DNA of 59,330 nucleotides, from the NCBI GenBank assembly GCA_021806295.1, contig JAJZXS010000016.1, positions 1-59,330 of the forward strand. The letters run 5' to 3'. This stretch comes from Thermoplasmata archaeon. GTDB lineage: Archaea; Thermoplasmatota; Thermoplasmata; Thermoplasmatales; Thermoplasmataceae. The translations under genes and the position numbers were made by a program. Of this stretch, positions 42,628-46,457 are shown one piece after another (the first letter of the stretch is position 1; each line of letters starts with the position of its first letter). The notes below the pieces were generated by a model. That model was given only the letters and a program-made list of their open reading frames with translations. It had not been told where the DNA came from and made no database searches.

Positions 42628-42916
42628 TCTTTAAATGATATATCTGCCTTATTTTAACCTTTTGCAAGTTACTCCATCTTTCTTCACATATTTACTATGC
42701 ATTTTACCTGGAATACATGAAAAAAATTTGAACCAAAATATAAAGTACACAGTCGACCAGATCTTCTATTATGTATAGATGTTATTTTTTATGCTAAAAT
42801 TATATTACCATATCATATTGGGCAACGAATAGATTATATACATTTTAAACATAACAATTTAATGGTAACTAAAAATTATCATAATGACTTAATTAACGCA
42901 TATAACGGTGGTAATA

Positions 42917-44212
42917 ATGAATGTCGATCCAAACATAACAAAATATGTTATCAAAGCAAAGATAGTAACTGATGGTGTTGTTGAAAAGCCCGATGTTGTT
43001 GGTGCAATATTCGGGCAGACTGAAGGATTATTAGGTGAGGAATTAGACTTAAGGGATTTACAGAAAAGTGGCAAGATAGGCAGGATAGAGGTTGAAATAG
43101 ATACCAAGAAAGGTAGAACAGAAGGGTTCGTATTAATTCCTTCCGGGCTTGATCAGGTAGAAAGTTCAATTCTAGCAGCAGCTCTTGAAACCATTGACAG
43201 GATAGGCCCATGCAAGGCAAAGGTAGACATAGAGGACGTTGAAGATGTACGTATAAACAAGAGGGACAAAGTTATTCAGAGGGCAGAAGAACTGTATAAA
43301 AAAATGGGCACAAACGGAAAGAGCCTCAGTGAAAGCATAATCCAGTCTGTCAGGGAGGAAGTAGAGAAGAAAGAAATTTTATCATACGGAGAGGAACACC
43401 TTCCAGCAGGTCCTGCAGTAGGTACGTCCGATTCAATTATAGTTGTTGAGGGCAGGAATGATGTGCTCAATCTTCTAAGGTACGGCATTAAAAATACCAT
43501 AGCCGTTCAGGGCACCAGCGTTCCTAAAACTGTAAAGGAGCTCTCAAAGGCGAGAACTGTAACCTTATTTGTTGACGGTGACCATGGAGGCGAACTTATT
43601 ATAAAGGAAATGCTACAGGTTGCTGATGTGGATTTCATAGCAAGGGCCCCACCTGGAACAGAAGTTGAGGAGCTTACATACAAGCAAATTGTTAAAGCTT
43701 TAAAATACAAGGCTCCTGTAAATCAGTATCTTGAATCGCATGGGATGATAGAGGAGCTCAAAGAATTTACCGAGAAGAACAACAAGGCTGTTGCAGACAT
43801 GAATGTAAATATTGAAAAAAAGCCTGAAACAAAGGAAGAACCTCATAAACCAGAAAAGGAAGAAAAGCATGTAGAACAGAGTGAGCCTGCTGCAACAACT
43901 GTAGAAGAAGAGATCAGGGATGTTGAAGACCCACGCTTTGTAAGGAATAAATTAAATGAACTGTATGAAAGCAAGGCAGTTGAAATATATGACAGTACAT
44001 CAAATCCGGTTGCAAGGTATCCAATTTCAGATGCTGTTGATCTCATGCAGGGGGTTAAAAATGCAAGTGTAATAATAAGTGGCGGTGTTATATCCCAGAG
44101 ATTTGTTGATATAGCTTTCAACATGGGTATTAAATCCATTTACGGCATGAAAATGGGACATGTAACAAAGAAGCCGGACGGAATCAGGGTGGTTACATGG
44201 GATCATATGTGA
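42917..44212 (+). CDS. dnaG: Archaeal DnaG-like primase / exosome-associated protein
   Basis: TOPRIM-domain protein. In archaea it associates with the RNA exosome and has also been given primase activity. The N-terminal part (YVIKAKIVTDGVVEKPDVVG, AIFGQTEGLLGEELDLRDLQ) is typical. The TOPRIM motifs are IVVEGRNDVLNLLRYGIKN and TVTLFVDGDHGGELIIKEM. A charged linker (about residues 295-340) leads to a C-terminal domain with GVKNASVIISGGVISQRFVD. I use the ATG at 42917, since GGTGG precedes it; a GTG three codons upstream is the alternative. It overlaps the following ATPase gene by 16 nt. Confidence 0.94.
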   Translation: MNVDPNITKYVIKAKIVTDGVVEKPDVVGAIFGQTEGLLGEELDLRDLQKSGKIGRIEVEIDTKKGRTEGFVLIPSGLDQVESSILAAALETIDRIGPCKAKVDIEDVEDVRINKRDKVIQRAEELYKKMGTNGKSLSESIIQSVREEVEKKEILSYGEEHLPAGPAVGTSDSIIVVEGRNDVLNLLRYGIKNTIAVQGTSVPKTVKELSKARTVTLFVDGDHGGELIIKEMLQVADVDFIARAPPGTEVEELTYKQIVKALKYKAPVNQYLESHGMIEELKEFTEKNNKAVADMNVNIEKKPETKEEPHKPEKEEKHVEQSEPAATTVEEEIRDVEDPRFVRNKLNELYESKAVEIYDSTSNPVARYPISDAVDLMQGVKNASVIISGGVISQRFVDIAFNMGIKSIYGMKMGHVTKKPDGIRVVTWDHM

Positions 44213-45678
44213 ATTACAGCGATTACCCTGATACATCATATTTAAAAATACCAACAAGCCCGCTGGAAAGGGTAATAGGTCAGGAGGAAGCTGTACGCCT
44301 TGCACTTATAGCCGCAAAACAGAGGAGGAATCTTCTTCTTGTTGGCCCTCCGGGGGTCGGGAAATCCATGATAGCCCAGGCCATGTCTTTTTACATTAGC
44401 AGGCCGGAGGAAGAAATCAGGGTTGTACATAACCCATCATATCCAGAAAGGCCATTTGTAGAGGTAAGAACTATCAGTGAGATCGAGAAGGAAAAACATG
44501 AAATGAACTCCATAGAGGGAGAAATCATAGATCCCAAAGATGCGCCTGACAATGTTGCACAGAGACTGGGGTATAAGTGCCCCCACTGTGGTTTTTATTC
44601 CCCGCCCACAGAGAGTGTATGCCCCAACTGTAATAACAGCAAGGCGGCAAACAATACACAGGGGCCATTCAACGATGTTTTTAACGTTATAGGAGTAGCC
44701 TTTGGTGTGAATAACAACAATGACAGGGTAACCCAGACCAGAAAAGTCGGTGACAGGGAAGAGATAGTAGTATACGAGAAATATGGCGATAAGATAAGGG
44801 TATTAGATGAAAAAACACTGGAAAGACGACGTAAACTTGAGAAGAAAAGTCCAAGCAAGGTAATAGTGCCCATCGACAGGAATCCATTTGTGCTGGCCAC
44901 CGGTGCAAGCGAGACTGAGCTTCTTGGGGATGTAAGACATGATCCATATGGCGGGCACCCACAGCTGGGGACCATGCCATATGAACGTGTAGTTGCAGGT
45001 TCAGTACATATGGCACATGAAGGGGTCCTATTTATCGATGAAATTACACACTTAGGAAAGCTTCAGCGTTTCATACTCACTGCAATGCAGGAAAGGAAGT
45101 TCCCCATCGTGGGGAGAAATCCACAGAGTGCGGGAGCAAGTGTAAAGGTGGATGATGTCCCTACTAATTTCATACTTGTCGCAGCATGTAATATACAGGA
45201 TTTACAGTATATACTGAGCCCGCTCCGTTCAAGGATTGTTGGAAATGGCTACGAAATTTTAATGGAAAATTCTATGCCGGACACAAAGGAGAACAGAATG
45301 AGATACCTCCAGTTTATCGCCCAGGAAATCAATATGGATGGGAAAATACCTAATATGGCCATAGATGCAACGGATATCATTATAAACGAAGGAAGAAGAA
45401 GGGCACTTGAGGATCACAAAAGCAACGCTCTTACCCTTAAGCTCAGGGAACTTGGTGGACTAGTAAGGGCCTCTGGCGATATGGCAGTGGAAAATCATCA
45501 TAAGTTAATAGAAAAATCCGATGTCAAGGAGGCACTTTCTCTGTATGTCCCTGTAGAGGAAAAGATCAAAAAATACTATGGCAGTATGACCAACGCAATA
45601 GGTGAAGAGGCAACAGGATCCCAGAAAGGAGAGTACTATAATTATTACAATTATAGCGAGGATAGGTCTTATCAGTGA
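44197..45678 (+). CDS. LonB-like AAA+ ATPase with zinc ribbon and no peptidase domain
   Basis: The ATPase core follows archaeal LonB closely. It has IGQEEAVRLALIAAKQRRNL, Walker A LLVGPPGVGKSMIAQA (near residues 47-62), VVHNPSYPERPFVEVRTI, the LonB-like block ATGASETELLGDVRHDPYGG, Walker B GVLFIDEITHL, sensor NFILVAACN and LSPLRSRIVGNG. The insertion between Walker A and B, which in LonB carries membrane spans, instead holds a zinc ribbon (CPHCGFYSPPTESVCPNC). The protein stops at residue 493 with a Tyr-rich tail, just where the Ser-Lys peptidase domain should begin. It is probably a soluble unfoldase or remodeller, cotranscribed with dnaG. Confidence 0.85.
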   Translation: MGSYVNYSDYPDTSYLKIPTSPLERVIGQEEAVRLALIAAKQRRNLLLVGPPGVGKSMIAQAMSFYISRPEEEIRVVHNPSYPERPFVEVRTISEIEKEKHEMNSIEGEIIDPKDAPDNVAQRLGYKCPHCGFYSPPTESVCPNCNNSKAANNTQGPFNDVFNVIGVAFGVNNNNDRVTQTRKVGDREEIVVYEKYGDKIRVLDEKTLERRRKLEKKSPSKVIVPIDRNPFVLATGASETELLGDVRHDPYGGHPQLGTMPYERVVAGSVHMAHEGVLFIDEITHLGKLQRFILTAMQERKFPIVGRNPQSAGASVKVDDVPTNFILVAACNIQDLQYILSPLRSRIVGNGYEILMENSMPDTKENRMRYLQFIAQEINMDGKIPNMAIDATDIIINEGRRRALEDHKSNALTLKLRELGGLVRASGDMAVENHHKLIEKSDVKEALSLYVPVEEKIKKYYGSMTNAIGEEATGSQKGEYYNYYNYSEDRSYQ

Positions 45679-45830: not shown

Positions 45831-46457
45831 ATGGCTATTCTGCTTCTATTTATAACCGTCTTCGTGGCACTGTTTGCAATAATTAACCCTATAGGGGCAG
45901 TGCCCATACTTATCACACTCACTGATGGCTACAGTCTGAAGGAGAGAAAGGAGGTTATCAGGAGAAGCGTTTACATGGCTTCCGGAATGCTCTTCGGCTT
46001 TATGTTCCTTGGTGTATATATATTTGATATTCTTGGAATCAGCATATATGATTTCGAAATAGCAGGCGGTATTCTACTTTTCAAGGTCGGTTTTGATATG
46101 CTGCAGGGAAAAACCTCCCAGACAAAAATCACGAATGCAGAGCAGCAGGACTCAGCTGACAGGGAGGCAATAGCAATAGCCCCAATAGGAACACCACTCC
46201 TTGCAGGCCCTGGATCCATAACAACGGCAATAATCTATTTTAATGGGACCGGAATAGATATACTGTCAAGAATGGTTGTAATTGCCGCAGTAATTCTTGT
46301 ACTTATACTGGCATTCATTATACTAAAGTATTCTCTGAGAATTTTCCAGAGGATAGGTAAAACTGGGTCAATTGTAATATCCAGGATAATGGGATTGCTT
46401 TTGACAGCCATAGCTGTTGACCTAATTACAACGGGAATTATTCATATTTTTCTCTGA
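45831..46457 (+). CDS. MarC family membrane protein
   Basis: A six-span membrane protein of 208 residues. FAIINPIGAVPILITLTDGY is the conserved first repeat, and IAIAPIGTPLLAGPGSITTA the second. FEIAGGILLFKVGFDMLQG lies between them, which is the MarC/UPF0056 pattern. The family function is unsettled; it was once linked to antibiotic resistance. GGTGGG precedes the ATG. The stop overlaps the convergent aroD end by 20 nt. Confidence 0.9.
   Translation: MAILLLFITVFVALFAIINPIGAVPILITLTDGYSLKERKEVIRRSVYMASGMLFGFMFLGVYIFDILGISIYDFEIAGGILLFKVGFDMLQGKTSQTKITNAEQQDSADREAIAIAPIGTPLLAGPGSITTAIIYFNGTGIDILSRMVVIAAVILVLILAFIILKYSLRIFQRIGKTGSIVISRIMGLLLTAIAVDLITTGIIHIFL

Follow-up and report, generated by a model that had tools for sequence, protein, structure and literature searches.

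The window, by which we mean the whole 59,330-nt stretch of archaeal DNA analysed here, encodes a 493-residue AAA+ ATPase that belongs to the Lon lineage and is a soluble relative of LonB. It lacks the Ser-Lys peptidase and the membrane anchor, carries a zinc ribbon at the anchor site and ends in a conserved tail with a penultimate aromatic residue, and its gene is tied to dnaG. With a probability of roughly 0.4, we consider it to be a hexameric LonB-derived unfoldase whose ribbon would hold a partner or substrate and whose tail would dock in trans on a separate complex, the 20S proteasome being the most likely one.

A Lon-type motor core without peptidase or membrane anchor

The closest curated family of the ATPase is archaeal LonB (NCBIfam TIGR00764), which it matches with 330.5 bits, below the equivalog cut-off of 516.6 bits. 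The nearest solved structures are those of Lon from T. onnurineus (PDB 3k1j and 4zpx). The predicted structure has a mean pLDDT of 83, and fold comparison using VIA-align gave a Z of 37 to the ATPase part of these Thermococcus structures, followed by MtaLonC with a Z of 18.8. The profile, the PDB relatives and the fold match agree in assigning a LonB AAA+ core. The first-pass annotation had described such a core with a LonB-specific block and both Walker motifs, and all of these were located (Table 1). Sensor-1 is N332, and the motor residues are invariant in an alignment of 66 orthologues. By what is known of the family, Y251 in the DPYGGHP segment would be the pore-loop aromatic of a ring with an axial pore.

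Table 1 Positions of the ATPase gene, its elements and dnaG in the window.
Feature	Coordinates	Strand	Residues and remarks
dnaG (archaeal DnaG, exosome subunit), upstream partner	42908..44212	+	NF003108, 518 bits
Protease-less LonB-type AAA+ ATPase with zinc ribbon	44197..45678	+	493 aa; profile and structure matches
Walker A, GPPGVGKS	44344..44367	+	50-57
Insert in place of the LonB membrane insertion	44446..44880	+	84-228; alignment with the genome's own LonB
Zinc ribbon, CPHC...CPNC	44578..44631	+	C128, C131, C142, C145; invariant in 66 orthologues; zf-ChsH2, DZR and Zn_ribbon_3 matches
LonB-type block, ATGASETELLGDVRHDP	44896..44946	+	234-250; sequence and alignment with the genome's own LonB
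DPYGGHPQLG, probable pore loop with conserved aromatic (DPFQSGG in LonB)	44941..44970	+	Y251 nearly invariant; putative role
Walker B, LFIDE	45028..45042	+	278-282
LRSRI, arginine-finger region	45223..45237	+	343-347
Sensor-2 region, LRELGG	45442..45459	+	416-421
C-terminal tail in place of the peptidase; last residues S-Y-Q-COOH (45667-45675)	45604..45675	+	penultimate Tyr/Phe in 74/76 orthologues

A search of the genome with the Lon_C profile (PF05362) did not find the Ser-Lys peptidase domain in the ATPase. The single match in the genome lies within a second, complete LonB of 659 residues (locus L002 on contig C31), and therefore no peptidase domain adjoins the ATPase gene. The GDSA motif is present in all 21 LonB sequences checked, whereas the peptidase is missing from the ATPase family. 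All orthologues share one end point without the peptidase, which excludes a local frameshift. A frameshifted or remote peptidase domain was likewise ruled out by the lone Lon_C match elsewhere and by these uniform ends, so that the missing protease does not stem from a sequencing error. No membrane segment was found in the ATPase, whose 19-residue hydropathy maximum is 1.27; the maxima are at most 1.66 in 66 orthologues versus at least 2.29 in 21 LonB of the same phylum, and the transmembrane insertion of LonB is thus absent by hydropathy. Since the ends are uniform and the hydropathy is low in the orthologues, the loss of protease and anchor is a trait of the family and not of one assembly. 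The peptidase and the membrane insertion are lacking and the score falls below the curated cut-off; therefore, the family is not a LonB protease and is a variant Lon-type AAA+ lineage. Even without a proteasomal step, a phylum-wide AAA+ family below that cut-off is at risk of being labelled "Lon protease".

The orthologues are well separated from LonB. With the window protein as the query, full-length orthologues scored at least 618 bits and LonB at most 222 bits, with nothing full-length in between; with a profile as the query, the values were at least 650 bits versus at most 288 bits in searches at the level of order, class and phylum. Pieces of orthologues with lower scores stem from fragmented frames and the ends of contigs. 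The family keeps one architecture across the phylum Thermoplasmatota. The family occurs in f1, f3, f6 (f numbers denote taxonomic families) and most other families of the class Thermoplasmata, with carriers including Ferroplasma, Acidiplasma, Thermoplasma, Cuniculiplasma, Aciduliprofundum/DHVE2, Methanomassiliicoccales and many MAGs, and also in some further Thermoplasmatota families (f39, f40, f42, f50, f53 and f54). A phylum-wide search did not find it in f2, f5, f12 or most other families of the phylum. Scanning 84,980 genomes yielded 475 relatives, and phylum labels cover the best 80 of these: 69 are labelled Thermoplasmatota, nine are labelled Methanobacteriota (with "Euryarchaeota archaeon" titles) and two carry no phylum. 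Several of the Methanobacteriota and unlabelled relatives among these 80 share coordinates with genomes placed in the order or class of the window.

In an unrooted tree of the shared AAA+ columns, a branch supported at 100/100 splits 27 members of the ATPase family from 22 LonB, Thermococcus LonB included, and this split suggests that the ATPase is an old paralogue of LonB. Together with the full-length LonB on C31, the tree excludes that the ATPase arose by a recent truncation of the LonB of this genome. In the same tree, Thermococcus LonB (Ton_LonB) falls within the Thermoplasmatota LonB, where it branches with that of family f47, and this placement suggests gene transfer.

No paper describing the family was found in the open-access literature, which misses most subscription papers, and the available portion of a genomic-context study of archaeal DnaG makes no mention of the ATPase. 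In a proteome of Cuniculiplasma divulgatum, a second "protease Lon homolog" (CSP5_1716) is listed besides LonB (CSP5_1287) (PMC7285479). On a 1,938,699-bp chromosome (G048), the ATPase is located near 1.657 Mb and LonB near 1.246 Mb; judging from position and gene order, CSP5_1716 is probably the Cuniculiplasma member of the ATPase family.

Genomic linkage to dnaG and co-occurring machineries

The family is linked to an exosome subunit: dnaG lies directly upstream of the ATPase gene on the same strand in 75 of 76 non-redundant loci, and no other neighbour comes near this frequency. DnaG is a subunit of the exosome, and its C-terminal domain is required for binding the Csl4 exosome (PMC4227792). 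In the window, the two ORFs overlap by 16 nt, and the conserved dnaG start is probably the ATG at 42917. The two genes are spaced −25 to +12 nt apart in the order Thermoplasmatales versus +12 to +131 nt in the rest of the class Thermoplasmata and the phylum. As overlap or near-overlap is confined to the order, the translational coupling to DnaG proposed in the first-pass annotation holds there and not elsewhere.

The sole family member seen away from dnaG (L109, genome G375) has a widened second ribbon knuckle, CPRPGC. Downstream, no neighbour among the clusters listed is common to more than 22 of the 76 loci. The ATPase gene is followed in the window by a gene for a MarC-family membrane protein (45831-46457) and in Cuniculiplasma (L073:5107-7672) by vWA-like, PP2C-type phosphatase-like and Ser/Thr-kinase-like genes.

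Genomes without the ATPase retain dnaG and the exosome, and tblastn detected no remnant of the ATPase near their dnaG. With 11 usable dnaG from such genomes, no DnaG column separated genomes with the ATPase from those without it, and no co-varying DnaG residues were found. In family f5 (L157, L158 and L159), which has no ATPase, dnaG and the proteasome beta gene are divergently oriented about 150-200 nt apart, and the gene after proteasome beta, annotated by eye, resembles aCPSF1. This arrangement is a second genomic link, from dnaG to the proteasome.

The genes of the 20S proteasome and of RNase PH-type exosome subunits are both present in all 80 genomes tested, and their co-occurrence with the ATPase therefore does not discriminate; a dependence of the ATPase on the exosome was uninformative for the same reason. 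The OB domain of PAN (PF16450) was absent from all 12 sampled genomes of f1, in which the ATPase and 20S are present. PAN occurs in most other Thermoplasmatota genomes with or without the ATPase, so that the latter is not a simple PAN substitute, and a strict replacement is ruled out by the presence of both outside f1. In f1, the ATPase could carry a larger share.

The zinc-ribbon insert and the C-terminal tail

The segment between Walker A and LLGDV comprises about 130 residues in the ATPase family, at the place where LonB has two hydrophobic helices. The ribbon, CPHCGFYSPPTESVCPNC (residues 128-145), is located there, and all four cysteines are conserved in each of the 66 aligned orthologues, in agreement with the earlier proposal that a zinc ribbon takes the place of the membrane anchor. 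Its matches in family members (zf-ChsH2, DZR and Zn_ribbon_3) are generic zinc-ribbon models, with no nucleic-acid-specific model among them. The insert modelled alone had a pLDDT of 78 and gave no confident structural match in Foldseek (E ≤ 0.001). These data do not establish the first-pass suggestion that the protein acts on nucleic-acid machinery, as the ribbon models are generic and the dnaG adjacency is the only link.

The chain stops about 30 residues past the lid. Its last 12 residues are predicted to be disordered (pLDDT < 50), yet they are conserved. The penultimate residue is Tyr in 68 and Phe in six of the 76 non-redundant members, while positions −3 to −7 hold 0 to 4 aromatics; a penultimate aromatic occurs in 38 of 585 other long ORFs of the same loci (6.5%). 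The fixation of this aromatic to the C-terminus despite varied tail lengths points to recognition of the carboxylate. The conserved tail extends beyond three residues (Y-x-Y-W-N...D-D). At the third-last position, 55 of 76 members have Gly or Ser, and a minority have Met, Ile, Val, Ala or Tyr. The tail with its penultimate aromatic is a new finding that was absent from the first-pass annotation.

HbYX tails dock AAA ATPases onto the 20S proteasome via the penultimate aromatic and the carboxylate. The ATPase shares with them the penultimate Tyr/Phe at a free C-terminus (SYQ in the window) and the presence of 20S in the same genome; the hydrophobic third-last residue is replaced by Ser. Cdc48/VAT of the window genome (L183) has a canonical HbYX end, GLYQ, and the PAN C-termini in related genomes of the phylum are MYA, MFA and IYG. 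The penultimate Tyr and the carboxylate were reported to be key, other third-last residues being tolerated in multivalent rings (PMC8907193), and Mpa has a variant HbYX motif (PMC11475706). The conserved tail thus suggests that the ATPase docks on a partner complex, for example the 20S proteasome.

Functional interpretation and comparison with known systems

From the features described above, we infer hexamer formation, threading, a partner for the ribbon and docking on 20S. The ATPase would form a ring and act as an ATP-driven soluble unfoldase, derived from LonB by loss of both the Ser-Lys protease chamber and the membrane anchor. The ribbon insert may grip either a substrate or a binding partner, for which DnaG and the exosome are plausible candidates. 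The tail, with its penultimate Tyr/Phe and free carboxylate, would exit the ring where the protease was formerly attached and dock in trans on a partner complex, the best candidate being the alpha ring of the 20S proteasome, into which the ATPase would feed proteins tied to RNA processing or decay. The face of LonB that bears the protease ring is the one that proteasomal ATPases present to 20S, and the predicted exit of the tail on this side favours trans docking on 20S. By analogy, such docking is also consistent with the conserved penultimate aromatic, the presence of 20S in 80 of 80 genomes, the HbYX ends of VAT and PAN and the retention of the ATPase in the sampled f1 genomes that lack the PAN OB domain. 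Against it, the third-last residue, Gly or Ser in 55 of 76 tail sequences, is unlike the hydrophobic residue of the listed PAN and VAT tails, PAN distribution gives no clean replacement pattern, and the longer conserved tail may serve to dock a different partner. The fuller proposal, that a Lon-lineage ATPase swapped its attached protease for 20S in trans while the ribbon ties it to DnaG or the exosome and so couples RNA and protein decay, is put forward as a doubtful extension.

Because the residue before the penultimate Tyr is often Gly or Ser, a protease-free remodeller of DnaG, the exosome or other RNA-protein complexes is nearly as likely. The ribbon and/or the tail would bind DnaG or Csl4/Rrp4, and the ring would separate or load subunits. 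This agrees with dnaG being the sole conserved neighbour, with the coupled overlaps in Thermoplasmatales, with exosome genes in every genome tested and with the role of the DnaG C-terminal domain in Csl4-exosome binding (PMC4227792). However, the ribbon matches generic models only, no DnaG column follows the presence of the ATPase, ATPase-less genomes retain dnaG and the exosome, and remodelling alone leaves the C-terminal aromatic unexplained. The dnaG adjacency may instead reflect historical co-transcription only, the ATPase being a general soluble chaperone or disaggregase with no fixed partner. Gene pairs can persist for expression reasons and no neighbour apart from dnaG is conserved, but the linkage at 75 of 76 loci across the sampled phylum is strong, and an invariant ribbon and a C-terminal motif conserved down to about 50% identity argue for specific partners, which makes this explanation unlikely. 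We regard as quite improbable a soluble regulator of full-length membrane LonB, in which the protease-less paralogue tunes LonB through mixed or stacked rings. LonB is indeed present in nearly all ATPase-carrying genomes, and the two AAA+ cores share 45% identity along their conserved stretch; against this, many relatives carry LonB but no ATPase, the loci read do not place the two genes side by side and the tree shows a deep split between the two cores.

Thermoplasma is a classic source of the 20S proteasome, and in its family, f1, no PAN was detected in 12 sampled genomes. The ATPase is a directly testable candidate for a further proteasomal motor. Its proteasome-like C-terminus and its link to an exosome subunit make it a candidate bridge between RNA decay and protein decay; if this is true, it would be an additional proteasomal ATPase that physically couples the two in Thermoplasmatota.

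Among known systems, archaeal LonB (TIGR00764; T. onnurineus Lon, 3k1j/4zpx; T. acidophilum LonB) shares with the ATPase the AAA+ core at 45% identity, the LLGDVRHDP block, the lid and the insertion site between Walker A and Walker B. The ATPase differs from it in having no Ser-Lys peptidase, no transmembrane insertion, a zinc-ribbon insert, a conserved C-terminal tail, a gene fixed to dnaG and a score below the LonB cut-off. PAN, Mpa and Cdc48 are likewise AAA+ unfoldases without a protease of their own, with a penultimate C-terminal aromatic and 20S in the same genomes, whereas the ATPase has a Lon-lineage core, no OB/coiled-coil N-domain, mostly Gly or Ser as the third-last residue and a putative mode of docking. 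MtaLonC, the second-best fold match among Lon-like proteins, keeps its protease and, in the available portion of its report, is described as lacking ATP-powered unfolding (PMC3391209); the window ATPase would be the reverse.
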